From: Pseudoflavonifractor phocaeensis
Lineage (GTDB): Bacteria > Bacillota > Clostridia > Oscillospirales > Oscillospiraceae
Length of the DNA: 64,000 bases
Reading direction: 5' to 3'
Assembly (NCBI RefSeq): GCF_021531815.1
Contig: NZ_JADYUM010000003.1
Coordinates: 140,062 to 204,061, forward strand
Positions 8,400 through 47,245 of the stretch are shown piece by piece (the stretch's first letter is position 1; every line of letters begins with the position of its first letter). The notes under the pieces were generated by a model. The model worked only from the letters and a program-made list of their open reading frames with translations, was not told the DNA's origin and searched no databases. A program made the translations under genes and the position numbers.

Positions 8400-8882
8400 A
8401 AAATTTTGGTTATTGGCCTATGGAACCTAAAACCTATGTTATGTAGGGCAAGGGCTCTGCCCTTGCCCTTTCCGGGTATCCGAAATACTGGGAGAAATCT
8501 GCGCACTTGAACACTTCGCGTGCGAGCGGGACGGGAGATAGGGATATTTCGCCCCCGGGCGAGGTACTTTTGTAAAGATACAAAAGTACCCAAAAAATCT
8601 CCGGGGCTTCGGCCCCGGTCCCCAAGGGGCGTCCTACAAAAAAGCCTGCCTCACGTCCGGCGCCGATCCCCTGGTTTTGCCGCCCCTCCTTCCGGGCCTT
8701 CGGCCCTGGGTCAAGGGGACTTGGATTGGAACAGGCGCTGAATACTGCGCTTGGGTTTCACAACTATGCGGCGCGGTCCTTGACCGCGCTGGCCCGTCCA
8801 TTGCATGCAGCTTGATTCAGTAGACACCTGTACCGGTTTGTCCCACAGAGCATAGACTCGCTTCTCTATAAACTAAAATTTA
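8400..8882 (+). repeat. Dispersed structured element, copy A
   Basis: About 480 bp of non-coding DNA between rseP and ispG, matched by copies B, C and D. Ends are inverted: AAATTTTGGTTAT on the left and, read inward from the right, TAAATTTTAGTTTATAG. Hairpins in order: H1 8446-8468 (10-bp perfect), H2 8563-8590 (12-bp perfect, GGTACTTTTGTA arm), H3 8601-8618 (CCGGGGC arm with TTCG loop), H4 near 8695-8712 (GGGCC arm), H5 near 8775 (GCGCGGTC arm). Orientation is given as the strand on which H3 has a UUCG loop. The outer TAA of the right end is the rseP stop codon. Confidence 0.85.
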
Positions 8883-9953
8883 TCTTCCGAACAGCTTGCC
8901 CACGTCGCTGAGGGTCACCATCAGCATCAGGGACAGCAGCGCCGCCATGCCCGCCATATGGACGTATCCCTCGTACTTTGGCGGAATTTTTCTGCGGAAC
9001 AGGCCGTACAACACCCCGTTGAGCAGCAAAAAGAAAATGCGTCCCCCATCCAGGGCAGGCAGAGGCAACAGGTTCATCACCGCCAGGTTGACGGCGATCA
9101 GGGCGGCAAAGGCCGCCATATTCTTGGCTGCGTCCAGAAGCGTAGGGGAAAGCTCGGGATTGCTGCCCACCTCGGTCATCACTTCCACGATACCCACCGG
9201 CCCGGACAGGTCCCGCAGGCCAACCGCGCCGCTGATCAGGTCCTCCAGGCTGAGCCACACCATGCGCACGTAGTCCAGCGCTCCATACCAGCTGAACAGC
9301 AGCTTATTGCCCAGGGTGGCGGGCAGCACTTCCATGCCGATGCTCAGCCCCCGCAGATAGGTGGTCTCCCCCTTCTCGCCGGTCCGCTCCTGGAGGGGCA
9401 TGTACAGACCCTCCAGCTTCACCTTCTGGCCGCCGCGCTCCACAACCCAGTCCACCGTATCCTCCGCGCGGCTCAAATACAGGGACACGTCGTCATAGCT
9501 GTACATCCGGTGTCCGTTGATGGATACCACCCGGTCGCCCGCCTGGAGGCCGCAGGTCTCCAACCCGTAGCCGTCCAGAAATCCGGCCACCGTGGGCATG
9601 ACGAACCCACTGCGCTGGGAGTACAGCACCAGAATGATCAGCAGTCCGGTGAGAAAATTCATGGCCGCCCCGGCGCAGAGGATCAAAAATTTCTTCCAGC
9701 CCGCGGCCCGGCCGAAGGCCCCCGGGTCGGCGGAGTCATCGTCCTCTCCCTCCATGGCGCAGTAACCGCCGATGGGAAGCGCCCGAACGCTGTAAAGGGT
9801 TTCTCCTTTCTCCCCGCTGAACAGAGCGGGACCCATCCCGATGGAGAACTCGTTGACCTTTACCCCCAGGCACTTGGCGGCGGTAAAGTGGCCCAACTCA
9901 TGGGTGGCGATGAGGATACCGAAGATCAGGATGGCAACAAGATTATAAAGCAT
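8880..9953 (-). CDS. rseP: Site-2 (RseP/RasP-type) intramembrane zinc metalloprotease
   Basis: The 357-residue membrane protein has HELGH at 18-22 in its first helix, a central PDZ domain (~120-190) and the distal NLLPLPALDGGR motif (~297-308) that supplies the third zinc ligand. The family cleaves transmembrane segments of anti-sigma factors and signal peptide remnants. It starts 25 bp after dxr with GGAGG before the ATG. Its TAA stop coincides with the outermost bases of repeat element A, so the element abuts, and may define, the C-terminus (KLFGR). Confidence 0.95.
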   Translation of the reverse strand: MLYNLVAILIFGILIATHELGHFTAAKCLGVKVNEFSIGMGPALFSGEKGETLYSVRALPIGGYCAMEGEDDDSADPGAFGRAAGWKKFLILCAGAAMNFLTGLLIILVLYSQRSGFVMPTVAGFLDGYGLETCGLQAGDRVVSINGHRMYSYDDVSLYLSRAEDTVDWVVERGGQKVKLEGLYMPLQERTGEKGETTYLRGLSIGMEVLPATLGNKLLFSWYGALDYVRMVWLSLEDLISGAVGLRDLSGPVGIVEVMTEVGSNPELSPTLLDAAKNMAAFAALIAVNLAVMNLLPLPALDGGRIFFLLLNGVLYGLFRRKIPPKYEGYVHMAGMAALLSLMLMVTLSDVGKLFGR

Positions 9954-9978
9954 AGAACCTCCAATGATCGCCGGCGGC

Positions 9979-11115
9979 TTACCGGGCGGCCTCCCGGGCG
10001 GCGGCGTCGGCCTCCAGAATGTCTGTCAGGCCGGGGTCCCGGACCACCGGGACTTTTTCCATAGCCCGGGCCACCTTGTCGGCGATGTCCAAAAAGCCGA
10101 TCTCCCCTGCCAGGAACTGGGCCACTGCCGCCTCGTTGGCGCCGTTGAGAATGGCCCCGGCGGTACCTCCGGCCTTGGCCGCCTCCAGCGCCAGCGCCAG
10201 ACAGCGGAAGGTATCCAGATCGGGGGTGCCGAAGGTCAGCGGCCCGCAGTTCCACAGGTCCAGCGGAGTGGCTGGACCGGGCACCCGCTTGGGCCAGGTC
10301 AGGGCATACTGGATGGGCAGCCGCATGTCCGGGGAACCCAACTGGGCGATCATGGCATTATCACAGTATTCCACCAGGGAGTGGATAATACTCTCCCGGT
10401 GAATTACGATGGCAATTTTTTCCGGCGGCATATGGTACAGGTGCATGGCCTCCATGAACTCCAGCCCTTTGTTCATCAAAGTAGCTGAGTCTACGGTGAT
10501 CTTTGCCCCCATGGACCAGTTGGGATGCCGTAAGGCGTCTTCCCTTGTCATGCCTTGCAGCTGTTCTCTTGTTTTGCCGTAAAAGGGGCCTCCGGAGCAG
10601 GTCAGGATGAGGCGCTTCACCTCTCCCCTGTCCTTGTTGCCCTCCAGGGACTGAAACAGGGCGGAGTGCTCGGAATCCACGGGCAGAATCTGAGCTCCGT
10701 AGTCTTTCGCCTCCTCCAGCACCAGCTGTCCGGCGCACACCAGGGTCTCCTTGTTGGCCAGGGCGATGCGCTTGCCCTCCCGGATGGCCGCCAACGTGGG
10801 CCGCAGACCCACCATCCCCACCACGGCAGTGATGACCGTATCAGCGCTGGAAATGGCGGCGGCCTCCATCAGCCCCTCCATGCCCGACAGTACCCGGACG
10901 TTGGTGTCCGCCAGCCGGACCCGCAGGTCGGCGGCGGCTTTCTCGTCCACCAGCACCGCCAGCTCCGGCTTGAACCGCCGGGCCTGCTCCTCCATCCGGC
11001 CCACGCTGGAATTGGCCGTCAAAGCAGCCACACTCATGCCGCAGGCGGCAATCACATCCAATGACTGCCGCCCGATGGAACCGGTGGAACCTAAAATTGA
11101 AATTCGTTTGCTCAT
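9979..11115 (-). CDS. dxr: 1-deoxy-D-xylulose 5-phosphate reductoisomerase
   Basis: The 378-residue enzyme makes MEP, the second step of the non-mevalonate isoprenoid pathway, with NADPH and a divalent metal. The dinucleotide loop GSTGSIG lies at 7-13 and the metal-binding VDSEHSALFQ at ~146. The ATG at 11115 is preceded by AAAAGGTGAAA; the longer reading frame to 11181 runs through a hairpin and is rejected. It sits in the classic uppS-cdsA-dxr-rseP-ispG cluster and feeds undecaprenyl phosphate synthesis, matching the UppS upstream. Confidence 0.97.
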   Translation of the reverse strand: MSKRISILGSTGSIGRQSLDVIAACGMSVAALTANSSVGRMEEQARRFKPELAVLVDEKAAADLRVRLADTNVRVLSGMEGLMEAAAISSADTVITAVVGMVGLRPTLAAIREGKRIALANKETLVCAGQLVLEEAKDYGAQILPVDSEHSALFQSLEGNKDRGEVKRLILTCSGGPFYGKTREQLQGMTREDALRHPNWSMGAKITVDSATLMNKGLEFMEAMHLYHMPPEKIAIVIHRESIIHSLVEYCDNAMIAQLGSPDMRLPIQYALTWPKRVPGPATPLDLWNCGPLTFGTPDLDTFRCLALALEAAKAGGTAGAILNGANEAAVAQFLAGEIGFLDIADKVARAMEKVPVVRDPGLTDILEADAAAREAAR

Positions 11116-11137
11116 ATTTTTCACCTTTTCAGTTGTG

Positions 11138-11207
11138 GATTCTTTTCTTGTAAGAAAAGAATCAAAAGGACTTTGGCGCAAAACTTCGTTTTGCTTCCTT
11201 TGACACT
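11138..11207 (+). repeat. Hairpin repeat, dxr-proximal copy
   Basis: A perfect 12-bp hairpin (GATTCTTTTCTT arm, 11138-11163) is followed inward by a second weaker hairpin around GCAAAACTTCGTTTTGC. It resembles, in inverted orientation, the unit at 11423-11493; conserved skeleton bases include CAAA, ACTT, AAACT, CGTT and GCTTC. Confidence 0.55.
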
Positions 11208-11214
11208 CAGAGCT

Positions 11215-11385
11215 CTAGCATACAACGCAAAGTAAAAGTCCACTGACGGCTATTCCCAGCAATACGCATAAAGCAGTAATGATACTCTTTGCTGCCTGGT
11301 TCCCAGCGACTAACAGATCCACCTTATTCGCATTTAGGGCCACTATAATACCTAATCCGAGCAAAAGCCAAGAAATTTTTGACAT
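11215..11385 (-). CDS. Predicted small membrane protein, 56 aa
   Basis: An ORF starting MSKISWLLLGLGIIVALNA and ending SGLLLCVVC. It has two hydrophobic stretches (about residues 5-18 and 35-55) separated by a short polar segment, so a two-helix hairpin in the membrane is likely. GGGAAG lies before the ATG at 11385. Its codon use is more AT-rich than the flanking cdsA and dxr, and the ORF is enclosed by inverted hairpin repeats, suggesting that the whole 11138-11493 piece was inserted into the operon. I do not recognise a family. It could be a chance ORF. Confidence 0.45.
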   Translation of the reverse strand: MSKISWLLLGLGIIVALNANKVDLLVAGNQAAKSIITALCVLLGIAVSGLLLCVVC

Positions 11386-11422
11386 TTTTCTTCCCTTTCA
11401 CAACATAAAAAGAAACCTTCTT

Positions 11423-11493
11423 GACCGCCAGAAGCGCAACGCAGTTTCGCAGGAAGTTTTCTTTGCCTGCTTTCTTTTTCAAAAGAAAGCAGG
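11423..11493 (-). repeat. Hairpin repeat, cdsA-proximal copy
   Basis: Directly after the cdsA stop, a perfect 13-bp hairpin (CCTGCTTTCTTTT arm, 11466-11493) is followed by a second palindrome around CTGCGAAACTGCGTTGCGC. It is the inverted partner of the unit at 11138-11207. Confidence 0.55.
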
Positions 11494-12315
11494 TCAGAAG
11501 GCGGGGAACAGCTCCACCAGCAGCAGCAGGGTGGGCGCCGCAAAGACCATGGAATCGAACCGGTCCATCATGCCCCCGTGGCCGGGAAGCAGGTTGCCGT
11601 AATCCTTCACGCCGCACTGGCGCTTGATCAGAGAGAAGGACAGGTCCCCCAACTCGGTGACCGCGCTGCCCACCAGGCCGTAGAGGGCCATCAAGTGGAA
11701 GGACACCGCCAGCCCGGCGAATCTGGCCAGGACCAGGGCATAGAGCAGCATAAACACGCAGCCGGACAGGATACCGCCCACGTAGCCCTCCACCGATTTG
11801 TTGGGGCTGACCCGGGTGATACCCCGGTGCTTGCCCAGAAACACCCCGGCGAAATAGGCCCCCACATCGGTGAGAAAGGCGCTGATCACAGGCAGCAGCA
11901 CCAGATACTGCCCGTTCTCCATTCCCTTCAGCCGGACCAGAGAGGACAGGAACAGGGGGATGGCCACGCCCCCAAAGAGGCAGACCATGACATGCTCGAA
12001 CCGGACCTCCTGTTCCTCCAGGTCGTAGTGCTGAATGGCCGTGAAAAACAGGGCGCACATCAGCAGCAGGGCAGCGGCCAGGGAAACCAGGCTCCCCCAC
12101 CCCGCCCAATAACCCACGGGGATGGCGGCGGCGGACAGAGCGGTGTAGACATACATGTGGTTGTGGTGGGCCACTTTGGTGGCCCGGAGCAGCTCATAGG
12201 AGGCCATGGCCACGATGGCGGCCACCGTCACCGCCAGACAAATGGGCGGCAGAAAAAACAGGTCCACGAAGAACAGCGGGGCCAGCACCACCGCCACAAG
12301 AATCCGTGCTTTCAA
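11494..12315 (-). CDS. cdsA: Phosphatidate cytidylyltransferase (CDP-diglyceride synthase)
   Basis: The 273-residue, roughly eight-helix membrane enzyme makes CDP-diacylglycerol from phosphatidate and CTP. The family signature is complete near the C-terminus: SLIKRQCGVKDYGN followed by LLPGHGGMMDRFDS (~223-251), with the metal-binding aspartates. The start appears to be TTG at 12315, placed after GGAGGTG, and the upstream uppS stop lies four bases before it, so the two are translationally coupled. Product feeds phosphatidylglycerol, the donor for the LTA synthase-like genes in this window. Confidence 0.96.
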   Translation of the reverse strand: MKARILVAVVLAPLFFVDLFFLPPICLAVTVAAIVAMASYELLRATKVAHHNHMYVYTALSAAAIPVGYWAGWGSLVSLAAALLLMCALFFTAIQHYDLEEQEVRFEHVMVCLFGGVAIPLFLSSLVRLKGMENGQYLVLLPVISAFLTDVGAYFAGVFLGKHRGITRVSPNKSVEGYVGGILSGCVFMLLYALVLARFAGLAVSFHLMALYGLVGSAVTELGDLSFSLIKRQCGVKDYGNLLPGHGGMMDRFDSMVFAAPTLLLLVELFPAF

Positions 12316-12318
12316 CGG

Positions 12319-13068
12319 TCACACACCTCCAAACCGGCGGTTTCGGCCCTGGTAGGCCGCAATGGCCCGCAGCAGCTCCTCCTTGGAGAAGTCAGGCCAG
12401 AGCACATCGGTGAAGTAGAACTCCGCATAGGCGGACTGCCACAGCAGGAAATTGGACAGCCGCAGCTCTCCGCTGGGCCGGATGACCAGATCCGGGTCGG
12501 GAACCCCCTTGGAGAACAGATAGCCGCCGAACTGCTCCCGGGTCAGGTGGTTGGGGTCCGCCCTGCCCTCCAGACAGTCCTGGGCATAGGCCTTGGCCGC
12601 ACGCATCAGCTCGTCCCGTCCGCCGTAGTTCAGGCAGATGTTCACCTGACAGCCGTCATAGTGCCGGGAGATCTCCCGGGTGCGCTCACACAGCTGGCGC
12701 AGCTCCGGGGTCAGCGGGGACAGGTCGCCGAAAAACTCCATTTTCACCTTGTCCCGCTCCATCCGGCCAATGGCCTCCAGCAGATATTTCTTCAGCAGGC
12801 CCATGATGGCCTCTACCTCGTCCGCCGGCCGCTTCCAGTTCTCGGTGGAGAAGGCGTATACCGTCAAATAGTCCAGGCCGATCTCCTTGCAGTAGGTAGC
12901 GATGGTTCGGAAGGTCTCAGCCCCCGCGGCGTGGCCCGCCGTCCGGGGCAATCCCCGCTTCTTGGCCCAGCGGCCGTTTCCGTCCATGATGATGGCGATG
13001 TGCCGGGGCAGGTGTTCAAAGTCCACCTGGGATTCCGGCTGATTGTTTTTTTTCTGAAATAAGGCCAT
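12319..13068 (-). CDS. uppS: Isoprenyl transferase / undecaprenyl diphosphate synthase
   Basis: The 249-residue cis-prenyltransferase carries the MDGNGRWA motif (28-35; catalytic Asp29) and the C-terminal RPSGELRLSNFLLWQSAYAE region. It condenses IPP onto farnesyl diphosphate to give the C55 lipid carrier for peptidoglycan and surface glycan assembly. GAGGTG precedes the ATG. It lies between frr and cdsA, as in many Firmicutes. Confidence 0.97.
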   Translation of the reverse strand: MALFQKKNNQPESQVDFEHLPRHIAIIMDGNGRWAKKRGLPRTAGHAAGAETFRTIATYCKEIGLDYLTVYAFSTENWKRPADEVEAIMGLLKKYLLEAIGRMERDKVKMEFFGDLSPLTPELRQLCERTREISRHYDGCQVNICLNYGGRDELMRAAKAYAQDCLEGRADPNHLTREQFGGYLFSKGVPDPDLVIRPSGELRLSNFLLWQSAYAEFYFTDVLWPDFSKEELLRAIAAYQGRNRRFGGV

Positions 13069-13130
13069 TGGGGCACCTCGATCCGGTCTGTCGTTTCAGA
13101 CCTTGTCTCAATATCTCAAAACCGTCAAAG

Positions 13131-13161
13131 GGCCGCGGGGCGGACAGCCGTCCCCGCGGCC
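13131..13161 (-). terminator. GC-rich hairpin between frr and uppS
   Basis: GGCCGCGGGG (13131-13140) pairs with its complement at 13152-13161. Downstream on the minus strand the sequence is CCTTTGAC, a weak tail, so it may be an attenuator or mRNA processing site and not a full terminator. Confidence 0.35.
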
Positions 13162-13179
13162 ATGTATGGCTGGGTCCGA

Positions 13180-13734
13180 TCAGACCGCCATCAATTCCTT
13201 TTCCTTCTTCGCGGTCAGCTCGTCGATTTCCTTACACCGCTTATCGGTGATGTCCTGAAGCTCCTTCTCCAGATTCTTCTGGTCGTCCTCGGTGATCTCA
13301 GACTTCTTGACCTTCTTCTTAATTTCGTCCATGGCGTCCCGGCGGATATTCCGGACGGCAACCTTACCCTCTTCCCCGTACTTGCGGACCTGCTTGGTCA
13401 GGTCCTTGCGGCGCTCCTCGGTGAGCTGGGGGAAGGCCAGACGGATGATCCGGCCGTCATTCTGGGGATTGATGCCCAGGTCGGAGGTCTGGATGGCCTT
13501 CTCAATGGCCTTGAGCAGAGAGCTGTCCCAGGGCTGGATGGTCAGGGTCCGGGGATCAGGGGAGGAAATGGCGGCCACCTGGTTCAGAGGGGTGGGAGTG
13601 CCGTAATACTCCACGGAGATCCGGTCCAGCACACCGGCGTTGGCACGGCCGGCGCGGACAGAGGCAAAGTTGGCCTTGACCACCTCGATGGTCTTCATCA
13701 TCTTGTCGTCGTAGATTTTGTTCTCAGGGCTCAT
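13180..13734 (-). CDS. frr: Ribosome recycling factor
   Basis: The 184-residue protein has the standard RRF length and sequence: VRAGRANAGVLDRISVEYYG near the N-terminus, the helical-bundle region with PFPQLTEERRK-like LAFPQLTEERRKDLTKQVRK, and an acidic/lysine-rich C-terminal helix. With EF-G it splits post-termination ribosomes. It follows pyrH, the usual arrangement, at 38 bp. Confidence 0.97.
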   Translation of the reverse strand: MSPENKIYDDKMMKTIEVVKANFASVRAGRANAGVLDRISVEYYGTPTPLNQVAAISSPDPRTLTIQPWDSSLLKAIEKAIQTSDLGINPQNDGRIIRLAFPQLTEERRKDLTKQVRKYGEEGKVAVRNIRRDAMDEIKKKVKKSEITEDDQKNLEKELQDITDKRCKEIDELTAKKEKELMAV

Positions 13735-13771
13735 GGTCTTGACTTCCTTTCCTTAATTCCAGTTTTTCCGA

Positions 13772-14488
13772 TCAGCCGCCTACAATGGTGCCGATCTTCT
13801 CCCCCATAACGGCCCGGAGAATGTTTTCAGGGTCCTTCAGGGCAAAGAGGAGGACGGGGATCTTATTGTCCATGGACAGGGAGGTGGCGGTGGAATCCAT
13901 CACCTTCAGGTGCTGGGCCAGGACGTCATCGTAGGTAATGGCGTCATATTTGACCGCGCTGGGGTCCAGCTTGGGATCGGCGGAGTAAACGCCGTCGATA
14001 TTCTTGGCCAGCAGGATCACGTCGGCGTCGATCTCGGCGGCCCGAAGGACCGCGGCGGTATCGGTGGAGAAGAAGGGATTGCCGGTGCCGCAGCCGAAAA
14101 TGACCACGCGGCCTTTCTCCAGGTGCCGGATGGCACGGGAACGGATATAGGGCTCGGCCACGGAACGCATCTCAATGGCGGTCTGCACCCGGACCTCAAC
14201 GCCCTTCTGCTCCAGCACGTCGGCCACGGCCAAAGCGTTAATGGTGGTGGCCAGCATGCCCATGTGGTCGGCGCGGACCCGCTCCATCTGGTCGCCGCCG
14301 TCCTTGACGCCGCGCCAGAAGTTGCCGCCGCCTACCACCACGCCCACCTGGACCCCAAGGCCCACACAGCGCTTGACCACGTCGCACACCTGGCCGATCA
14401 CATGGAAGTCCAGGCCGCGGGAGGCGTCGCCCGCCAGGGCTTCGCCGCTGATCTTCAACAAAACTCTTTTATACTTAGGCTGCTCCAT
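13772..14488 (-). CDS. pyrH: UMP kinase
   Basis: The 238-residue amino-acid-kinase-fold enzyme phosphorylates UMP to [15 protein letters not shown] at the N-terminus, the GGGNFWRG loop, [13 protein letters not shown] and the C-terminal [11 protein letters not shown] segment are all present. I place the start at the ATG 14488 because AGGAG precedes it; a GTG nine bases upstream overlaps that site. It is the first gene of the run that ends at polC. Confidence 0.97.
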
Positions 14489-14695
14489 TGGAACCACTCC
14501 TGTCTTTTTTCTTGCTTTCTTATTTTAATATAATTCTCCCCGTTTGCATAGGGGTGAAATCAAAGTTTTTCAAATTGTCCTCACTTGAAAACGGATCGTC
14601 CGCGGATCACGTGGACCGTCCCGGAGGCGGTTTTTCAAACCTCCCATGTCTTATTGGAAGCATAAAACAGATGTTTATTTTATTGGTACCGCAAT
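14489..14695. other. pyrH upstream region
   Basis: About 200 bp without a gene. It is AT-richer than its surroundings and contains TATATTAAAAT on the minus strand as a possible -10 for pyrH, plus a short GGAGG/CCTCC palindrome. No clear -35 box was found. Confidence 0.3.
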
Positions 14696-15178
14696 AAATT
14701 TTCGTTTCGCTGTCCATGGGAGCGAAAACCGATGTGATGTAGGGCAAGGGCTCTGCCCTTGCCCGTTTCGGGTGAGCAAAATGCTGGGAGAAATTTGCGC
14801 GCTTGGACACTTCTCCTACAGGCGGGACGGGGGATTAGGGAAGTTTCGTCCTCGGGCGAGGTACTTTTTTAGAGATACAAAAGTACCCAAAAAAACTCCG
14901 GGGCTTCGGCCCCGGTCCCCAAGGGGCGTCCTACAAAAAGCCTGCCTCACGTCCGGCGCACATTCCCTGGTTTTGCCACTCCTCCTTCCGGGCCTTCGGC
15001 CCTGAGTTAAGGGGGCTTGGATTGGAACAGCCGCTGAATCCTGCGCCTGGGTCTCACGACTGTGCGGCGTGGTCTTTGACCGCGATGGGCCGTCCATTGC
15101 ATGCAGTCTGATCCATCGGCAGTCCGCATAGGTCAGTCCTACAGAGCGTAAAACTGCTACCTCATAAACGAAAATTTT
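14696..15178 (+). repeat. Dispersed structured element, copy B
   Basis: About 480 bp between the pyrH leader and the ribU promoter, closely similar to copy A along its length. Ends: AAATTTTCGTTTCGCTG on the left, GAAAATTTTCGTTTATGAGG read inward from the right. H1 lies at 14742-14764, H2 near 14858 (one mismatch relative to A), H3 with its TTCG loop near 14898, H4 near 14988. A single-base shortening of an A-run near 14935 relative to copy A breaks the open reading frame seen in A and C. Confidence 0.85.
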
Positions 15179-15241
15179 CCTGTTTATGTTGTCCGGTGTC
15201 TGCGATGTTTTGGCACAAACGAAAGATTTTTCCGCAAGGGG

Positions 15242-15270
15242 TTGCAATTTTCTCCCCTGTGCCGTATAAT
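15242..15270 (+). promoter_or_regulatory. Promoter of ribU
   Basis: TTGCAA (15242-15247), a 17-nt spacer and a perfect TATAAT (15265-15270). The predicted start near 15277 is about 20 nt upstream of the FMN riboswitch. Confidence 0.75.
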
Positions 15271-15295
15271 GTGCCACAGACAACTGAATCCAATG

Positions 15296-15414
15296 TCTTC
15301 AGGGCGGGGTGCAACTCCCCACTGGCGGTACAGTCCGCGACCGGACGCAGCGATGCGTCCGCTGACCCGGTGAAACTCCGGGACCAACGGTATAGTCCGG
15401 ATGGAAGAAGATGT
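15296..15414 (+). promoter_or_regulatory. FMN riboswitch (RFN element)
   Basis: The conserved RFN segments are all present in order: CTTCAGGGCGGGGTG, AACTCCCCACTGGCGGTA, AGTCCGCGA, the GGTGAAACTCCGGGACCAA block and CGGTATAGTCCGGATGGAAG. It binds flavin mononucleotide. The expression platform before ribU (15415-15524) contains TTTTGAC/GTCAAAA arms just ahead of the ribosome binding site AAGGAG, so translational control is plausible. Confidence 0.96.
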
Positions 15415-15524
15415 GTGTAGAACAATATTCACGCGCGTTTGCGCGGGTTGCGCACCTCCTTGATTGTTTTGACACCTGGAAGGCATGGCTTTTCGGGCGT
15501 CAAAAATTTTAAGGAGTGTTTTTT

Positions 15525-16151: not shown

Positions 16152-16161
16152 CCGCTGACGC

Positions 16162-16198
16162 AAAAGCGGGGCAGATCTTCATCTGCCCCGCTTTTTTT
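16162..16198. terminator. Strong bidirectional terminator between ribU and yjdF
   Basis: The arms 16165-16176 and 16181-16192 (AGCGGGGCAGAT) are perfectly paired, with T7 on the plus side and AAAA on the other flank. The T-tract overlaps the 3' end of yjdF. Confidence 0.85.
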
Positions 16199-16598: not shown

Positions 16599-16599
16599 A

Positions 16600-16716
16600 T
16601 ACAGTTTCCTCCCTAAAAATACGCGTCAGGGAAGGGACGACCCGGGAGGGAAGGTTACTGACGGGAGCGCGCCGCCCGCGGACGGACTACCAACCGCCCT
16701 GTGTTTTTATCCCTGC
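16600..16716 (-). promoter_or_regulatory. yjdF leader, candidate azaaromatic riboswitch
   Basis: From the predicted start near 16716 to the yjdF ribosome binding site there is a ~115-nt GC-rich leader in the position where the yjdF-motif RNA occurs. A pyrimidine stretch CCTTCCCTCCC (16654-16644) is complementary to the ribosome binding site GGGAGGAAA region (16613-16605), which would give an on/off switch at translation initiation. I identify it from gene context and this pairing, not from a full motif match. Confidence 0.65.
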
Positions 16717-16722
16717 CTTTTG

Positions 16723-16751
16723 ATTATACCGTGCGGCCAAGCGGTCCGCAA
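16723..16751 (-). promoter_or_regulatory. Promoter of yjdF
   Basis: TTGCGG (16751-16746), a 17-nt spacer and a perfect TATAAT (16728-16723) on the minus strand. Confidence 0.7.
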
Positions 16752-16898
16752 GTCCAAACGCCCGAACATACGGGACGAATCACCTCCGCCCCTCTTAACC
16801 TCCTTTTGACCTGCTCCCGGTAGCGGTTTTAACAATCCTTTTTTAGAATAATGCCGTCTACTGCGACAAAGATTACATCAAACAGGAGGAAACCAATT

Positions 16899-18467: not shown

Positions 18468-18484
18468 AACCACTTCCCTGCTCC

Positions 18485-18528: not shown

Positions 18529-18529
18529 G

Positions 18530-19037
18530 TAAATTTTGGTTTATTGACCAGCAAGTCTATGCTCTGCAGGACCAACCGGTGCGGTTTTCTGCTGAATCAA
18601 GCTACATGCAATGGACGGACCAGTGCGGCCAAGTACCACGCCTCACAGCTGTGAAACCCAGGCGCAGGATTCAGCGGCTGTTCCAATCCGGTTTTCCCTG
18701 ACCCAGGGCCGAAGGCCCGGAAGGCGGGGCCGCAAAACCAGGGAATGTGCGCCGGACGTGAGGCAGGCTTTTTTGTAGGACGCCCCTTGGGGGCCGGGGC
18801 CGAAGCCCCGGAGATTTTTTGGGTACTTTTGTATCTCTACAAAAGTACCTCGCCCGAGGGCGAAACATCCTTATCTCCCGTCCCGCCCGCAGGCGAGATT
18901 TTCAATTCTCTACTATTCGGCGGCCCCAAGGGTCCGCCTTACCTGAACGCAGAATAACGTCCGTCAAAGGCAAGGGCAGAGCCCTTGCCCTACATCATAT
19001 CAGTTTCCGCTTCCATGGGCTGCGAAGCCAGAATTTG
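18530..19037 (-). repeat. Dispersed structured element, copy C (inverted)
   Basis: About 508 bp, the reverse complement of copies A and B, between alkaline phosphatase and the YibE/F gene. The element's right end is at 18530 (TAAATTTTGGTTTATTG) and its left end at 19037. H2 (GGTACTTTTGTA arm, perfect) is near 18830, H3 with a UUCG loop on the minus strand is near 18800, H1 near 18980. Compared with A it carries extra sequence between about 18895 and 18960. Confidence 0.85.
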
Positions 19038-19071
19038 TATTTTCCATCTCGATGCAAAGGAATCATACGCC

Positions 19072-37263: not shown

Positions 37264-37281
37264 GGCGCCTCCTCCCCAGTT

Positions 37282-37316
37282 GATCTCTCATGCCCGCATG
37301 CAGATCGTGAGAGATC
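37282..37316 (-). other. Imperfect palindrome between rarA and comEC
   Basis: GATCTCTCA and TGAGAGATC arms with a partly palindromic loop, located in the 65-bp gap. There is no T-run; role unknown. Confidence 0.3.
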
Positions 37317-37328
37317 CTTTGCCGGCGG

Positions 37329-38606: not shown

Positions 38607-38618
38607 AGGCTCATCTCC

Positions 38619-39997: not shown

Positions 39998-40166
39998 CTG
40001 ATCACCACTTCTGACGGAACGCCCCGCGCTCAGACAGGCGCGCGTTCACGTTATTTTTATATGATACCATATCTCGCCGAAATTTTCGACTGCTTTTTTC
40101 TCCGATCCCGATTTTTACAAGCGTCTTTTTCCTGCGTTCCGTCCCGAGCGGCATCAGAGGCAGAAA

Positions 40167-40197
40167 ACGCGGGCCGCCGGAAGCGGGCGGCCCGCGT
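40167..40197 (-). terminator. Terminator of the sodium symporter gene
   Basis: ACGCGGGCCGCC pairs with its complement at 40186-40197; TTTT follows on the minus strand. The remaining gap to nth (39998-40166) holds an AT-rich patch with TATCAT on the minus strand, a weak candidate -10 for nth, and nothing else that I can see. Confidence 0.75.
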
Positions 40198-40244
40198 CTT
40201 GGACTCTTTTTCATCGGAAATGCCCGGACGCCCCACAGGTCCTC

Positions 40245-41627
40245 TCAGGCAAAAAACTGGTTCCAATAGCCCATGAAGAAAATGAACAGCACCACCACCG
40301 GCAAAACATAGGTCACATAGGGCCGTACGCCCCTGGGGAACTTCAGTCCGGCGCCGGTGTTGGCCTCGGCCAGGAAGTTCTCCCAGCCCCAGCCCCGGCG
40401 GGAGACGCAGAACACCAGATAGACCAGGGACCCGAGAGGCAGGACGTTCTGGCTGACCAGGAAGTCCTCAATGCCGGAGATGTCCATACCCAGGACGGTG
40501 AAGCCGGACCACAGGTTGAAGCCCAGGGCACAGGGTGCGGACAGAAGCAGCACCGCCACGCAATTGACCGCCACCGCCTTTCTGCGGCTCCACCCCCACA
40601 TATCCATGGAGAAGGAAATGATGTTTTCAAAGACGGCGATGATGGTAGACATGGCAGCGAAGGACAGGAAGACGAAGAACAGCGTCCCCCACAGGCGGCC
40701 CATGGGCATCTCGTTGAAAATGTTGGGCAGGGTGATGAACACCAGGGAGGGACCGGCCCCGGGGGCCACGCCGTAGGCGGAGCAGGCGGGGAAAATGATC
40801 AGTCCCGCCACGAAGGCCACGAAGGTGTCCAGGCCGCAGATGCGCAGGGCCTCACCTCCGAGGGAGTGGCTCTTGTCGATGTAGCTGCCGAAAATGGCGA
40901 TGGCGCCGATGCCCAGAGACAGGGTGAAGAACGCCTGGCCCATGGCGGCGAACACGGCCTCTCCCAGGATCCACTTTCCCTCCGCGTCGTACATCAGATT
41001 CCGGAAGTTGGGCCAGAGGTAGAAGCGCAGGCCCTCGGCGCCTCCCGCCAACGTCAGGGAGCGGACCGCCAGCACCAGCATCAGCACCAGCAGACACAGC
41101 ATCATGGGCTTGGTCACCTTTTCCACGCCGTTCTGGAGACCCTGGAGACACACTGCCATACCCAGCAGGATGACCAGGGCCATGAACAGCAGCATGATCC
41201 CCGGCTTTCCCATCAGGGCGGAAAACTCACCGGCCACACCGTCGGCGCTCAGGCCGGTAAAGTCCCCCATGGCCATCTTGCCGCAGTACAGCACCAGCCA
41301 CCCGGCGATGACGGTATAGAACATCATCAGCAGGTAGTTTCCGGCAAAGCCCACCCAGCTGTACAGGTGCCACTTGGAGCCTTTGGGCTCCAGTACGTGG
41401 AAGGACCGGGCCATGCTCTTCTGACTGGCCCGGCCCACAGCCAGCTCCATTACCATGACGGGCAGGCCCAGGACCGCCAGAAATAACAGGTACACCAGCA
41501 CAAAAGCGGCGCCGCCATACTGCCCCACGATATAGGGGAACCGCCAAACGTTCCCCAGCCCGATGGCACACCCCGCCGAGATCAGCAAAAATCCCAGGCG
41601 GGAAGAAAAATTCTCTCTTTTCTCCAT
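40245..41627 (-). CDS. Neurotransmitter:sodium symporter (NSS) family transporter
   Basis: The 460-residue protein has 11-12 predicted helices. The first helix ends in AGCAIGLGNVWRFPYIVG, the unwound sodium/substrate-binding segment of LeuT-fold transporters; ACSAYGVAPGAGPSLVFITLP is the matching later region. Bacterial members import amino acids with sodium. Substrate cannot be read from sequence. AAAGGAGG precedes the ATG; single-gene unit with promoter at 41681-41709. Confidence 0.93.
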   Translation of the reverse strand: MEKRENFSSRLGFLLISAGCAIGLGNVWRFPYIVGQYGGAAFVLVYLLFLAVLGLPVMVMELAVGRASQKSMARSFHVLEPKGSKWHLYSWVGFAGNYLLMMFYTVIAGWLVLYCGKMAMGDFTGLSADGVAGEFSALMGKPGIMLLFMALVILLGMAVCLQGLQNGVEKVTKPMMLCLLVLMLVLAVRSLTLAGGAEGLRFYLWPNFRNLMYDAEGKWILGEAVFAAMGQAFFTLSLGIGAIAIFGSYIDKSHSLGGEALRICGLDTFVAFVAGLIIFPACSAYGVAPGAGPSLVFITLPNIFNEMPMGRLWGTLFFVFLSFAAMSTIIAVFENIISFSMDMWGWSRRKAVAVNCVAVLLLSAPCALGFNLWSGFTVLGMDISGIEDFLVSQNVLPLGSLVYLVFCVSRRGWGWENFLAEANTGAGLKFPRGVRPYVTYVLPVVVLFIFFMGYWNQFFA

Positions 41628-41680
41628 TCCGAGAACCTCCTTTATCCTTCGGCCCTCTCTAGGCCGCGCACAGTAAAGCC

Positions 41681-41709
41681 ATTGTACTAGATTTTCTCCC
41701 CACGGTCAA
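41681..41709 (-). promoter_or_regulatory. Promoter of the NSS symporter
   Basis: TTGACC (41709-41704), a 17-nt spacer and TACAAT (41686-41681) on the minus strand. The rest of the gap up to the terminator at 41884 contains no supportable gene. Confidence 0.65.
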
Positions 41710-41883
41710 CCGTTTGGGTGGATGGCCATCCATCTTTCCGGCCGGACTGCAGAATATGCTTTCCTGAGCTGTTTATTCCAGGCGGGAATTATGGGGCCAG
41801 GTCAGCGTTCTGCCTTCACGAAGCACTGCTTCAATACGCCGGTAAACTCAGATTCACCCCATCTTCGGAGAGACGGCTACAGC

Positions 41884-41920
41884 AAAACCTCCCTCTGTCA
41901 AAATGACAGAGGGAGGTTTT
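41884..41920 (-). terminator. Terminator of the MarR-type regulator gene
   Basis: A perfect 17-bp stem (41884-41900 with 41904-41920) with a three-base loop and TTTT ends on both strands. Confidence 0.88.
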
Positions 41921-41946
41921 CATTTTGAACCGTCAGCCGGCACGTC

Positions 41947-42393
41947 TTACTTTTCTTTCATCTTGACCTCAGGCATCAGTTCCTCACCCACCACATGGAG
42001 CATATGGTCCAGCTGCTCGGTCTCTTCCGGCGTAAACCGGTTTTTGATCCGGCCCATCACTTCCTGAAGGTAGGTGCTGCTGATGTTGTAGTAATCCAGA
42101 TACTTTTGGGTGGGCCGCAGATGATACTCCCGGCGGTCATAGGGTGACTGGACCTTTTCCACATAGCCCTTTTGGATTAGGCTGTTTACCTTATAGGCGG
42201 CATTGGGGGATGAGATGTGGACAAAGGAGGCAAATTCGTTGATCGTCGGCTCCTTCAGCGCCTGGATGATCTCCATACAGAAGGTCTCCACCGCCGTCAG
42301 CGTAGCCTCCCGGCTTTGAAAACGGGAAAATATCTCCTGATAAAAATGCAGTTTGAATTTGGTATACACCTCGTCAAAGCTTTCCTCCAGCAA
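41947..42393 (-). CDS. MarR-family regulator, likely controller of fatty-acid synthesis
   Basis: The 148-residue protein has the MarR winged-helix core: INEFASFVHISSPNAAYKVNSLIQKGYVEKVQSPYDRREYHL split as recognition helix and wing with the conserved D-R-R-E. It begins at TTG 42393 behind AGGAGGAAG. It is immediately downstream of the fab genes but has its own promoter at 42465-42493. By position it may be the FabT-like repressor of the locus; FabT is also MarR-type. That role is inferred, since no FabT box was found. Confidence 0.85.
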   Translation of the reverse strand: MLEESFDEVYTKFKLHFYQEIFSRFQSREATLTAVETFCMEIIQALKEPTINEFASFVHISSPNAAYKVNSLIQKGYVEKVQSPYDRREYHLRPTQKYLDYYNISSTYLQEVMGRIKNRFTPEETEQLDHMLHVVGEELMPEVKMKEK

Positions 42394-42464
42394 CGTTCTT
42401 CCTCCTCACTGCACCGGAATCCGCCATTGTATCTGAAAACAGTCATTTTTTCCATGCTGATTCC

Positions 42465-42493
42465 AGTATATCAAAAGTTTACCGGTTCAGCAA
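42465..42493 (-). promoter_or_regulatory. Promoter of the MarR-type regulator
   Basis: TTGCTG (42493-42488), a 17-nt spacer and TATACT (42470-42465) on the minus strand. The -35 overlaps the fabZ stop codon. Confidence 0.5.
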
Positions 42494-42933
42494 GAGGAGG
42501 CTGGACTTTCCGTCAGCGCAAAGGTCAGTTCCGCCTTGCAGGCGGTCTTTCCGCTCACCTTGGCGGTGGCGGTGCCGAAGCCCACAGGCCCCCGCTGGGC
42601 GGTGAGCTCACACTCCAGTTCCAGCACGTCGCCGGGACGGACCTGTTGCTTGAAGCGGGCGTTCTTGATGCCCCCGAACAGCGCCAGCTTGCCCTTGTTC
42701 TCCGGCACGGTGAGAATGGCCACCGCCCCCACCTGGGCCAGGGCCTCGATGATGAGGACACCGGGCATCACCTTATAGCCGGGGAAATGTCCCTGGAAAA
42801 AGGGCTCGTTGGCAGTTACGCACTTGATGCCCTTGGCGCTCTGGCCAGGTTCACAGGCCGTGATCTTATCCACCAGCAGGAAGGGGTAGCGGTGGGGCAG
42901 CAAGGCCTCGATCTGGTCGATGTTCAGTTCCAT
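42487..42933 (-). CDS. fabZ: 3-hydroxyacyl-ACP dehydratase
   Basis: The 148-residue hot-dog-fold enzyme dehydrates 3-hydroxyacyl-[17 protein letters not shown], the catalytic His in [23 protein letters not shown] (Glu on the following helix) are typical. GGAGG lies before ATG 42933; the extra N-terminal codons in the longer frame overlap fabF and are rejected. Last biosynthetic gene of the operon. Confidence 0.96.
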
Positions 42934-42935
42934 AT

Positions 42936-44180
42936 TCAGTCCTCCTCCCACTTCTTCAGCACGATGGCGGCGTTGTGGCCGCCGAAGCCCAGGGAGTTGG
43001 ACAGTGCCACCTTGATCTCCGCCTCACGGCCCTGGTTGGGCACGATGTCCAGATCGCAGGCCGGATCGGGCTGCTCATAGCCGATGGTGGCGGGAACAAA
43101 GCCCTCCTTCAGGGCCAGGGCGGTGAAGATGGCCTCCACCGCGCCGGCGGCGCCCAGCAGGTGGCCGGTCATGGACTTGGTGGAGCTGACCATCAGTTTC
43201 TTGGCGTGCTCCCCGAAGGTGGTGTGGATGGCCGCTGTCTCACAGGCGTCGTTCATGGAAGTGGAGGTGCCGTGGGTGTTGATATAATCCACCGCCTCAG
43301 GGGCGATCCCGGCATCGGCCAGGGCCTGGGCCATACAAGCGGCTCCGCCCGCTCCGCCGGGGGCGGGAGCGGTGATATGGTGGGCATCGCAGTTGGCGCC
43401 GTAGCCCAGCACCTCGGCATAGATCTTGGCGCCCCGGGCCTTGGCGTGCTCGTACTCCTCCAGCACCAGGATACCCGCGCCCTCCCCCATGACAAAGCCG
43501 GAACGCCGGGCGTCAAAGGGGATGGAGGCCGCCAGAGGGTCCTGGCTGTCGGTGAGGGCCTTCATGGCGGTGAAGCCGCCCATGGCCAGAGGGGTGATCG
43601 CGGCCTCAGCGCCGCCGCACAGCATCACGTCGCCGTAACCGTCCCGAATGTGGCGGAAGGCGTCGCCCACGGCGTTGGTACCGCCGGCACAGGCGGTGAC
43701 CACGCAGGAGCACATGCCCCGGAAGCCGTAGCGGATGGCGGCATGGCCCGCCGCCATGTTGGAGATGATCATGGGGATCATAAAGGGGGACACGGAGTCA
43801 AAGCCCTTGGCCAGGCCGCGCTCATAGGCCCCCCCCACCGTCTCAAAGCCGCCGATGCCGCTGGAGATCAGCACGCCGCAGCGGTCCAGATCTTCCTTCT
43901 CCCGGTCCAGACTGCTGTCGGCCATGGCCTGGTCGGCGGCGATGAGGGCAAACTGGGTGAAGCGGTCCATCTTCTTGGCGTCCCGCTTGCCCAGCAGGCC
44001 GTCCACATCCAGGTCCTTCACCTCTCCGGCCAGCTTTACCTTCTGGTTGGCGGTATCATAGCGGGTAATGGGGCCGATGCCGCATTTGCCGGCCTTCACA
44101 GCCTCCCAGCTCTCCGCCACCGTATTGCCGGTGGGGTTCACGGTCCCCATACCGGTAATGACTACTCTGCGTTTTTCCAT
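42936..44180 (-). CDS. fabF: Beta-ketoacyl-ACP synthase II
   Basis: The 414-residue condensing enzyme elongates acyl-ACP with malonyl-ACP. The nucleophilic Cys is in [16 protein letters not shown] (~163), and the two His are in [11 protein letters not shown] (~303) and [15 protein letters not shown] (~340). GAGGTG precedes ATG 44180. Directly follows fabG. Confidence 0.97.
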
Positions 44181-44193
44181 ATCCTTCACCTCA

Positions 44194-44937
44194 TTACACC
44201 GCCATTCCGCCGTCCACACACAGCACCTGGCCGGTGATATAGGCGGAATCCTGCTCCGCGAAGAAGGCCACCGCCCGCGCCACGTCCTCAGGGGCGCCGG
44301 GACGGCCCATGGGGATGGTGGACAGCATGGCTTCCTTGGCCTTCTCCGGCAGAACGGCGGTCATATCCGTGTCAATAAAGCCGGGAGCCACGGCGTTGAC
44401 GGTGATGTTCCGCCCGGCCAGCTCCTTGGCGGCGGCCTTGGTCAGGCCCAGAATCCCCGCCTTGCTGGCGGCATAGCCCGTTTGCCCCGGGTTGCCCCGC
44501 AGGCCCACCACGCTGGACAGGTTGACGATCCGCCCGAAGCGCTGGCGCATCATCAGCTTGGAGGCGGCCTTCATGCAGAAATAGGCCCCCTTCAGATTGG
44601 TGTCCAGCACCCGGTCCAGGTCCTCGGCCTTGGCGGTCATCAGCAGGCCGTCCCGGGTGATGCCCGCGTTGTTCACCAGAATGTCCACTTTGCCGAAGCG
44701 GTCCTTCACCGCCTTTACCAGTTCCTCGCAGGCAGCGGGATCGGCCACATCGGCCCGGAAGGCCTCAGCCTCCGCGCCCAGTGCCCGGCAGGCCTCCACC
44801 GTCTCCTGGGCGGCGGCCTCGTTGCCTGCGTAATTGACGGCCACAGCCGCCCCCCGGCGGGCCAGTTCCAGGCAGATGGCCCGGCCGTTCCCCCGGCTGC
44901 CGCCGGTGACCAGAGCCACAGCACCCTTCATGGTCAT
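44194..44937 (-). CDS. fabG: 3-oxoacyl-ACP reductase
   Basis: The 247-residue short-chain dehydrogenase has the NADPH loop VTGGSRGNGRAICLELA, NNAG, the catalytic Ser in NLSSVVGLRGNPGQTGYAASKAG and the Tyr-x3-Lys YAASK. Its ATG overlaps the fabD stop (ATGA). Confidence 0.97.
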   Translation of the reverse strand: MTMKGAVALVTGGSRGNGRAICLELARRGAAVAVNYAGNEAAAQETVEACRALGAEAEAFRADVADPAACEELVKAVKDRFGKVDILVNNAGITRDGLLMTAKAEDLDRVLDTNLKGAYFCMKAASKLMMRQRFGRIVNLSSVVGLRGNPGQTGYAASKAGILGLTKAAAKELAGRNITVNAVAPGFIDTDMTAVLPEKAKEAMLSTIPMGRPGAPEDVARAVAFFAEQDSAYITGQVLCVDGGMAV

Positions 44938-45869
44938 AGGTCTTCTCCTTTCAGAGCCGCCGCGACCTTCTCGAAGTCATCGGCGGTATCGATGTTGTAG
45001 GTACGGATGGAGGGGGCGGTCTTTTTCACGAAGGCGGACAGGGTCTTGCCCGGCCCGATCTCCACGATGGTGTCCACCCCGTCCGCCTCCATGCGGCGGA
45101 TGGTGTCCTCCCAGTAGACGGAGGACTGGACCTGCCGCTCCAGCAGGGCGGCAATGGATTCCTCCTCCGCCTTGGGGCCGCCCTTGCAGTTGAAATAGAC
45201 GGGAATTTCCATCTTATGGAAGGTAATGGTCTCAAAATGCTTCCGCAGCACGTCCCCCGCCGGTTTCATCAGCCTGGTGTGGAAGGGGCCGCTGACCTTC
45301 AGGGGCATGCAGCGCTTGGCCCCCAGCTCCTTGGCGATCTCCCCCGCCCTGTCCACGGCGGCTTTTTCGCCGCCGATGACCAGCTGGCCGGGGCAGTTGT
45401 AGTTGCAGATCTGGACCACGCCCAGCTCCGCTGCCCGGTCACAGGCCGTCTGCAGCTTCTCCCGGTCCAGGGCCAGGACGGCGGTCATACCGCACTCCAG
45501 GCCGGCGGCGGCCTCCTCCATGGCTTTTCCCCGGAGGGCCACGGTGCGGATGGCGGTGTTCCGGTCCAGCACCCCGGCGGCGTACAGGGCGGAGTACTCC
45601 CCCAGGGACAGGCCCGCAGCCGCCTGGGGATAGATCTCCCGGCTGTAGAGCAGTTCTGTGACGCCGATGGCAAAGGCCACCATACAGGGCTGGGTATACC
45701 GGGTCTGGGACAGCCGGTCCTCCGGGCCATCGAAGCACAGCTGCTTCAGGTCAAAGTCCACAGGCGCGCTGTCCATCACGGAGGCAAACTCCGGGTACCG
45801 CTCATAGAAGTCCCGGCCCATGCCCACCTTCTGGCTGCCTTGGCCAGCATATACAAACGCTAATTTCAC
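44934..45869 (-). CDS. fabD: Malonyl-CoA:ACP transacylase
   Basis: The 311-residue enzyme begins KLAFVYAGQGSQKVGMGRDF and has the nucleophilic Ser in AGLSLGEYSALYAAG (~90) with the GPFHTRLM His region (~200). Start codon GTG, with GGAGGTG four codons upstream overlapping the fabK stop. It charges ACP with malonate for FabH and FabF. Confidence 0.96.
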   Translation of the reverse strand: MKLAFVYAGQGSQKVGMGRDFYERYPEFASVMDSAPVDFDLKQLCFDGPEDRLSQTRYTQPCMVAFAIGVTELLYSREIYPQAAAGLSLGEYSALYAAGVLDRNTAIRTVALRGKAMEEAAAGLECGMTAVLALDREKLQTACDRAAELGVVQICNYNCPGQLVIGGEKAAVDRAGEIAKELGAKRCMPLKVSGPFHTRLMKPAGDVLRKHFETITFHKMEIPVYFNCKGGPKAEEESIAALLERQVQSSVYWEDTIRRMEADGVDTIVEIGPGKTLSAFVKKTAPSIRTYNIDTADDFEKVAAALKGEDL

Positions 45870-45872
45870 CTG

Positions 45873-46805
45873 TTACACCTCCCGGGCCAGCTGCGCGGCG
45901 GTGGAATGGCAGCCGGCGCACAGCTCCTCCAGAATGGTCCGCAGGGGGCGGATCTCGTGGAGCATGCCAGCCACCTGGCCCGCCATCAGGGAGCCGGTCT
46001 TAGTATCGCCGTCAAAGACAGCCCGGCGCAGGGAGCCCAGGGTGTACTTCTCCAGCTCCATCTTGTCAGCGCCGGCCTTCTCCCGGCTGATATATTCCCG
46101 GGTCATCTGGTTTTTCAGGACCCGGACCGGGGCGCCCACAGAGCGGCCGGTGACGGTGGTGTCGCTGTCCTTGGCCTTCAGCAGGGCCTGCTTGTAGTTA
46201 TCGTGAATGGGGCACTCCTCGCTGACCAACAGGCAGGTGCCGATCTGAGCGCCGCAGGCTCCCAGGGCGAAGGCGGCGGCCAGCTGCCTGCCGCTGGCGA
46301 TGCCGCCGGCGGCGATCACCGGCAGGTCCGTCATGTCGCACACCTGGGGTACCAGGGCCATAGTGGTCAGCTCGCCCACGTGGCCGCCGCTCTCGGTGCC
46401 CTCGGCGATGAAGCCGTCCACACCCAGGGGTTCCAGCCGGCGGACCAGCGTGGTGGCGGCCACGACGGGAAACACCTTAATCCTGGCCTCTTTCCAGGCG
46501 GGAACATACTGGCTGGGGACGCCGGCTCCGGTGGTGACCACCTTGACGCCCTCCTCCACCACCACCTTGGCCATCTCGGGGGCGGCAGGGTTCATGAGCA
46601 TGATGTTGACGCCGAAAGGTTTGTTGGTCAGCGCCTTGCAGCGGCGGATGTTTTCCCGGAGGCTGTCGGCATTCATGCCGCCGGCGCCGATGAGGCCCAG
46701 GGCCCCCGCGTTGGACACGGCGGCGGCGAACTCGCCGGTGGCGATATTGGCCATGCCGCCCTGGATCAGGGGGAACTCAGTCCCCAGCAATTCGTTCAGC
46801 TTCAT
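45873..46805 (-). CDS. fabK: Enoyl-ACP reductase II, flavin-dependent FabK type
   Basis: The 310-residue FMN TIM-barrel protein (2-nitropropane dioxygenase-like) starts MKLNELLGTEFPLIQGGMAN and has GTESGGHVGEL and VIAAGGIASGRQLAAAFALGA phosphate-binding loops. It reduces enoyl-ACP with NAD(P)H and replaces FabI; no FabI is present here. AAGGAGA precedes the ATG. It begins 48 bp from repeat element D, which separates it from fabH. Confidence 0.96.
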   Translation of the reverse strand: MKLNELLGTEFPLIQGGMANIATGEFAAAVSNAGALGLIGAGGMNADSLRENIRRCKALTNKPFGVNIMLMNPAAPEMAKVVVEEGVKVVTTGAGVPSQYVPAWKEARIKVFPVVAATTLVRRLEPLGVDGFIAEGTESGGHVGELTTMALVPQVCDMTDLPVIAAGGIASGRQLAAAFALGACGAQIGTCLLVSEECPIHDNYKQALLKAKDSDTTVTGRSVGAPVRVLKNQMTREYISREKAGADKMELEKYTLGSLRRAVFDGDTKTGSLMAGQVAGMLHEIRPLRTILEELCAGCHSTAAQLAREV

Positions 46806-46852
46806 ATGATCTCTCCTTACGGATGGTTCCGTTGGTTTGATGGTTGTATGGC

Positions 46853-47245
46853 AAATTTTAGTTTTCTGAGGATTTCGCCTGCGGGCGGGACGGGGGGCGG
46901 AGAAGTTTCGCCCCCGGGCGAGCTACTTTCCAGGGAAGGAAAGTAGCCAAAGTTCCCCGGGCCTGCGGGCCCGGACCCGATGAAAGTTCGATTGGGAAAG
47001 TATTCCTTGCGTCCGGCGCGCATTCCTTGGTTTTGCTGCCCCGCCATCCGGGCCTTTGGCCCTGAGCCGAGTGAATTTGAATACAGACAACCGCTGAATA
47101 CCGGCACCTGCGTTTCCGAATTGTGCGGCGTAGTGCTTGGCCGGCCTGGCCTTCTCCCGGCCATCTTTTGGTGACTTTTGGATGGCTCCAAAATTCACTC
47201 GCCGCCGCAGCGGTGAAATCTCCTAACCCTATAGACTAAAACTTA
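46853..47245 (+). repeat. Dispersed structured element, copy D (short, diverged)
   Basis: About 393 bp between fabH and fabK. Ends: AAATTTTAGTTTTCTG on the left and TAAGTTTTAGTCTATAG read inward from the right; the outer TAA is the fabH stop codon. H1 of copies A-C is missing. H2 is kept as GCTACTTTCC (46922-46931) with GGAAAGTAGC (46938-46947): both arms differ from copy A yet still pair. H3 is kept as CCGGGCC/GGCCCGG with a TGCG loop (46957-46974), again with a compensated pair. H4 is kept near 47048. Confidence 0.8.

Follow-up and report, generated by a model that had tools for sequence, protein, structure and literature searches.

The window analysed here is a 64,000-nucleotide stretch of Pseudoflavonifractor phocaeensis DNA that carries four copies (A–D) of a dispersed repetitive element (Table 1). 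The genes on either side of A, at 7333–8370 and 8880–9953, are presumably ispG and rseP, as judged from operon order, and those around D, at 45873–46805 and 47243–48133, we take in the same way to be fabK and fabH. The original prediction had placed four copies in this window, and on reading the sequence we found each of them within a few bases of where it had been put. No gene was called inside A–D using our home-made gene caller, which is based on codon usage and may misplace start positions.

Table 1 Elements A–D and their component parts (positions in the window).
Feature	Position	Strand	Context or basis
Element A	8401..8881	+	Between minus-strand gene 7333-8370 and gene 8880-9953; right end is the TAA stop of 8880-9953
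H1 of A	8443..8462	+	GTAG-tagged REP word, identical to the word in the genome's RAYT-like gene; word search
Two-hairpin arm of A (TTTCGCC..GGCGAG + GGTACTTT..AAAGTACC)	8547..8591	+	Locus L001; covariation analysis
Right inverted end of A (ATAAACTAAAATTT)	8868..8881	+	End-pattern search
Element B	14696..15177	+	5' of an FMN riboswitch
H1 of B	14739..14758	+	Same REP word as in A; word search
Two-hairpin arm of B	14844..14888	+	By eye
Right inverted end of B (ATAAACGAAAATTT)	15164..15177	+	End-pattern search
Element C	18531..19036	-	5' end at 19036 degenerate, about 10/14 matches, judged by eye
Right inverted end of C (ATAAACCAAAATTT)	18531..18544	-	End-pattern search
Two-hairpin arm of C	18822..18866	-	By eye
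H1 of C	18974..18993	-	Same REP word as in A; word search
Element D	46853..47244	+	Between minus-strand genes 45873-46805 and 47243-48133; right end is the TAA stop of 47243-48133
Left two-hairpin arm of D	46906..46947	+	Locus L081
Second arm of D, inverted	47145..47228	-	Iterated profile search
Right inverted end of D (ATAGACTAAAACTT)	47231..47244	+	End-pattern search

The four copies had been described as one family with a uniform, ordered series of hairpins, a description that we could not uphold. Hairpin H1 (GTAGGGCAAGGGCTCTGCCCTTGCC) is present in A, B and C, its word is absent from D, and the copies are composites of the ends, a REP (in A–C) and a two-hairpin arm that occurs across the genus. 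D resembles a shortened version of a longer type with two arms, which measures about 560–800 bp elsewhere in the genome.

With copy A as the query, the window genome (G000; 2,671,270 bases, or 2.67 Mb, in 45 contigs) gave 56 matching pieces, the best non-self match having an E-value of 3.7e-151. An iterated profile over the element-bearing stretches resolved 35 clusters, which include the four window copies and a few fragments, and we estimate the family at roughly 40 elements in this genome, with identities to copy A of about 70–94%. Additional copies are broken off at contig ends. The elements are closed by AT-rich inverted ends (TAAATTTTNGTTTAT...ATAAACNAAAATTTA), whose outer edges are mostly T and A, and a relaxed right-end pattern matched 35 times (17 + 18) in the window genome as compared to 0 matches for the control read backwards. 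We also used the genome of the sister species (Pseudoflavonifractor phocaeensis An901, hereafter G052), a gut bacterium like the host of the window. For the elements whose two ends could both be recognised, the outer neighbour of the left end is T in 22/25 elements of the window genome and 30/30 of G052, and that of the right end is A in 20/25 and 27/30, respectively. Such edges are what insertion at a TA dinucleotide would give. When sites were compared with their empty counterparts, the right edges aligned to the junction in several cases; the left flanks were too diverged, and no match was base-perfect. A link between the variable bases of an element's two ends was considered and, on reading the ends, dropped. 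Across both species the elements span 143–852 bp, each with its separate AT-rich ends, and none of the 55 measured elements fully contains a called gene. The expectations that the family would have many copies per genome, AT-rich inverted ends and no encoded protein were confirmed. Conservation of the ends holds across the genome, and we found no degraded gene that would account for the similarity among the copies.

In 28/55 elements (13/25 in the window genome and 15/30 in G052), a gene next to the element takes its TAA stop codon from one of the ends. When compared to the expectation from all of the TAs in the same gap, 28 of 48 eligible sites write a stop, with 14.45 expected (z 5.7); this comprises 13/21 in the window genome (5.34 expected, z 4.9) and 15/27 in G052 (9.11 expected, z 3.3), two counts that are not independent as sites are shared. 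A preference for operon gaps was also considered and was rejected, as the genes flanking 43/54 elements run in the same direction, a share equal to that of gaps in general (333/421), and there is therefore no enrichment in this respect. The stop-codon placement in apparent operons of essential genes suggests a survival route where insertions are usually harmful.

We then consider the distribution of the elements among relatives. Across 64 genomes of the genus, the exact 15-mer end was found 26 times in the window genome, 70 times in G052 and once each in 4 others, and its reversed control gave 2 matches in total. G052 has as many elements as the roughly 40 of the window genome, or more, in two main kinds: a short kind of 143–305 bases (mostly near 200–260) and a long kind of about 680–850 bases, related to the window-genome copies. 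For 23 short G052 copies, some of which are probably other types or mis-oriented, the pairwise identity had a median of 96.1% (mean 86.4%, minimum 51.5%). In other members of the genus whose A and D gaps were spanned by an alignment, these gaps either are short or contain unrelated sequence, in many cases small palindromes. Plasmid and phage collections held no match to one 671-bp copy.

The comparison of orthologous intergenic regions that the original prediction had called for was run between these two genomes. By hand tally, 28/38 tested sites of the window genome, including A, B, C and D, have the end motif at the orthologous flank in G052, although several of these, C among them, were judged from one flank, and for 4 (L038:1778, L041:13076, L042:11302, L047) the flanks conflict or map to different contigs or places. 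The other 10 sites (L035:15103, L037, L038:8328, L042:4120, L043:9100, L051:10315, L053:5373, L054, L121, L122) have no end in G052. This tally leaves out the contig-end copies in L119 as well as two fragments, L051:4141 and L044:1019. As G052 loci were first picked for having ends, which would bias the tally upward, the remaining sites of the window genome were then sought by flank regardless, and of 14 pieces sent in this look-up 12 were followed up, with, by our reading, 4 filled and 8 without an end on the tested flank.

The interiors at shared sites, by comparison, are unlike. For 14 site pairs, whose flanks have a median identity of 86.9%, the best match between interiors had a mean of 33.7 bits (median 22.9), versus 39.0 bits (median 23.8) for non-orthologous pairs. 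In 13 of the 14 pairs (one of which, L053, is a truncated copy in the window genome), the best interior match is at most 26 bases long; the exception is L048 with L156 of G052, in which a 118-base stretch is kept at 86%. Where the long kind occupies a site in both species (five sites, compared by eye), its orientation is reversed at B, C, L048 and L053 and kept at L042:11302. Taken together, shared sites and unlike interiors make it appear that contents are replaced in place, turning over while the ends and the location persist. Repeat insertions common to species are usually taken as inherited sequence. In this case the two species have the location in common but differ in the sequence, so that an old site may contain young DNA. 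If true, this would be a natural example, simple to score, of bacterial repeats whose contents turn over in place, as well as a warning that the divergence of such repeats cannot be used to date them.

We consider it likely (a probability of roughly 0.6) that these are non-autonomous, BOX/MITE-like non-coding elements, probably transposon-derived, whose contents would have been replaced block-wise within fixed 14-base inverted ends. It is the ends together with the TA edges that point to a transposon-type origin with the enzyme supplied in trans. In the common ancestor, a putative end-recognising enzyme would have inserted elements at TA dinucleotides; the ends would later have been cut or have recombined, opening elements where they stood, and repair that used a different copy would have put new contents between the ends. 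Other movers (RAYT in the case of REPs) probably introduced the REP and arm modules, which would now be spread as cargo. Considering that the ends are abundant in two species only, we infer rather than observe the direction and timing of replacement. A more far-reaching version, which we put forward tentatively, is a genome-wide exchange of cassettes among inherited docking sites, in which a trans-acting enzyme would swap the contents or flip them. Sister species would then retain the same sites with different cargo. Under the same tentative version, two inverted ends would bound each docking site, which in many cases would be joined to the stop codon of a gene.

An enzyme for the ends was sought in both genomes. 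No DDE_3 domain was found in either (0/2; the control search matched in 3/14), and an IS630/Tc1-mariner-derived MITE with a DDE_3 partner was rejected for want of such a transposase in both. At the loci examined, every recognisable end either has a partner no more than 852 bases away or sits close to the end of a contig, with the exceptions of C, L041:4432 and L053:2688, where the partner is degenerate. No autonomous element sharing the ends was found among the element loci of the two assemblies, in which contig-end copies could hide one; the enzyme may be lost or unassembled.

MITEs are short, non-coding and multi-copy, with inverted ends. The elements described here have all of these features and depart from bacterial MITEs in that no partner transposase was found and orthologous copies have unrelated contents. 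Bacterial MITEs are covered in a review (PMC10969869). The BOX elements of Streptococcus pneumoniae are reported (PMC3049150) to be modular, size-variable and non-coding, with a length that varies at orthologous sites; they often lie at the 3' end of genes and encode a stop without strong evidence of truncation, 36/58 overlapping CDSs. Compared by description, our elements are likewise modular, size-variable, non-coding and suppliers of stop codons (28/55), and differ in their host and in having interiors that are unlike at orthologous sites, beyond the number of modules.

Could the shared sites have been filled twice? Plain MITE families that strongly prefer certain sites might have invaded separately and hit the same TAs, often stop codons, in both species with no in-place exchange. 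The enrichment at stop-codon TAs is consistent with this, as are the single TA available in some gaps and the likeness of the short G052 copies, which are probably young (median identity 96.1%, next to about 70–94% to copy A among the window genome's own). We nevertheless regard it as unlikely, since sharing at 28/38 sites would demand an extreme preference, some shared sites (e.g., B) are away from stop codons, and the other 62 genomes of the genus have four stray end matches only, though many have open gaps at A and D.

A little less probable again is that dispersed copies undergo ordinary homologous gene conversion, which would homogenise their contents, might be triggered by breaks at hairpins and would need no end-specific enzyme. 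That copies are mosaics of common modules would follow from it, and most short copies within G052 are indeed alike; a chimera of a short-type end with a long-type interior also lies at the start of G052 C46. Against conversion, replacement reaches as far as the 14-base ends, the best match being at most 26 bases in 13/14 orthologous pairs. A length of 14 bases is too little homology for RecA.

The inverted ends could instead be crossover sites of a recombinase that inverts cassettes or exchanges them between loci, as in a genome-wide inversion system. Mpi of Bacteroides fragilis is one such master recombinase, acting on many invertible-DNA loci. Our elements resemble that arrangement in that one inverted end motif recurs at many dispersed loci, and the reversed orientation of the long type at 4/5 sites (B, C, L048, L053) and the rearranged flanks at L041:13076 and L042:11302 would fit as well. 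They differ in being missing at 10/38 orthologous sites, which indicates that units also come and go, and in that their reversed orientations come from a comparison between species. Considering in addition that no recombinase was found and that five orientation sites are few, we hold this account to be quite improbable.

Within the elements, hairpin H1 could be assigned to a known class. H1 of A, B and C (GTAGGGCAAGGGCTCTGCCC...) is a GTAG-tagged palindrome, and the same 20-base word occurs twice, inverted, within the reading frame of the only RAYT-like gene found in the window genome (L286:1373-1861), with a third copy just 3' of it. This gene matched Y1_Tnp at 23.7 bits (cut-off 23) and the REP-associated tyrosine transposase of NCBIfam at 70.6, below the cut-off of 80; the RAYT-like genes scored 70.6 and 65.7 against the latter and 23.7 and 28.8 against the former. 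Allowing up to 2 mismatches, the word has 36 matches genome-wide (control 0), of which our tally puts 22 within elements and 3 at the RAYT locus. The remaining 11 are elsewhere, most of them beyond the stretches that were read. The G052 RAYT-like gene has a different word, with 15 matches inside and 20 outside measured elements, as counted in element-centred stretches with contig-end elements scored as outside. RAYT genes with their own REP pair were rejected as a novelty, considering that PMC6006769 describes them, including a REP word inverted inside the reading frame for TnpA-REP subclass 2.4, and REPs that supply stop codons are reported in PMC3733652. A GTAG-tagged palindrome with a RAYT gene in the genome is found for H1 only, and the element as a whole is unlike GTAG-tagged REPs in that the REP is a minor part of a larger unit with its own AT-rich ends. 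We thus rejected the possibility that one or two REPs make up the entire element, given its 143–852 bp, its separate ends and the lack of the H1 word in D.

The two-hairpin arm was examined for signs of an RNA structure. Its first hairpin is TTTCGCC..GGCGAG, the second has a stem around CTTT..AAAG, and CAAA comes after it. Among 24 distinct arms, the second stem has both-side changes in 8/12 pairs; its 62 both-side-change cells compare with 16.5 in shuffles (0/500 as high), and shifting the pairing partner abolishes the covariation signal. Neither the double-change pairs (8 vs 6.3 shuffled, reached in 27/500) nor the pair types (reached in 196/500) stand out. Across 98 stems we counted 1040 Watson-Crick pairs, 11 G-U, 6 A-C and 21 others; the stem search pattern forces 3/11 pairs, so 294 of the 1040 Watson-Crick pairs are trivial and 784 freely varying positions are left. 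In RNA under selection, G-U is expected to be tolerated far more than A-C. Because compensatory changes are accompanied by few G-U pairs, the evidence leans towards a DNA palindrome rather than an RNA stem, such as might bind a protein or form a hairpin in single-stranded DNA, although this is not decisive as template-switch correction likewise perfects palindromes. Of the options first suggested (a mobile element, structured RNAs or mobile leaders), the mobile character stands and the RNA option fits less well, with 11 G-U and 6 A-C over the 784 positions. That the elements are functional structured RNAs in intergenic leaders is highly improbable: the both-side-change cells speak for it, while the two unremarkable covariation measures, the few G-U pairs (11, next to 6 A-C), the unlike contents at orthologous sites and the lack of an Rfam match all speak against it. 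An Rfam gathering scan of the window returned two riboswitches only, and a permissive scan of six sources gave one chance-level match, outside the elements. The initial impression that no named element has this layout held within these scans and the open-licence PMC literature, in which we found no named family or like case in this group.

A covariance model of the arm matched 52/64 genomes of the genus, or, as the model was built from 23 arms of seven genomes, 45/57 of the other genus genomes as the fairer count. At a stricter limit, it matched 8/243 genomes drawn from the class, with the window genome among the 8. The presence of RAYT does not obviously track the arm, with a Y1_Tnp match in 30/64 genus genomes versus arms in 52/64. 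In most of the other genus copies listed, the arm starts near GGGGATTTCGCC and has no AT-rich end. One genus copy (L234) starts at a TAA stop with TCTGTTTAT, which is faintly like the end, and from this copy an older link between the arm and the AT-rich end is possible.

Because the two flanks of a single element in the genome that holds the window (G000) are found apart in its sister genome, that of P. phocaeensis An901 (G052), rearrangement ends may coincide with the elements at the three loci listed in the table below. Many contigs of both genomes begin or end within elements, so element copy numbers are uncertain in both.

In other genus members, the arm, a two-hairpin module of the elements, occurs as facing pairs approximately 570–630 bases apart (L015, L092 and L020). 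Each pair resembles a foldback element that is independent of the AT-rich ends and has separate termini close to GGGGATTTCGCC.

The gap of element D is bordered by genes that we take to be fabK and fabH, considering the operon order. In several species (L179, L182, L183, L185), this gap is occupied by small GTAG-type palindrome pairs, which differ from one another.

Among 17 loci with RAYT-like genes from genus members (L286–L302), 14 have a HuH-containing reading frame, and 11 of these 14 carry, within the open frame, an inverted pair 13 bases or longer. GTAG palindromes made up 7/11 of the in-frame pairs, several of them varying among species. In-frame inverted pairs are already known in RAYT genes, being described for TnpA-REP subclass 2.4 in PMC6006769.

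Riboswitches in the window and G000 elements with displaced flanks
Feature	Position	Strand	Remark
FMN riboswitch	window 15291-15416	+	directly 3' of element B
azaaromatic (yjdF) riboswitch	window 16617-16720	-	
G000 element	L041:13076-13845		two flanks at separate G052 places
G000 element	L042:11302-11976		two flanks at separate G052 places
G000 element	L047:3940-4620		two flanks at separate G052 places
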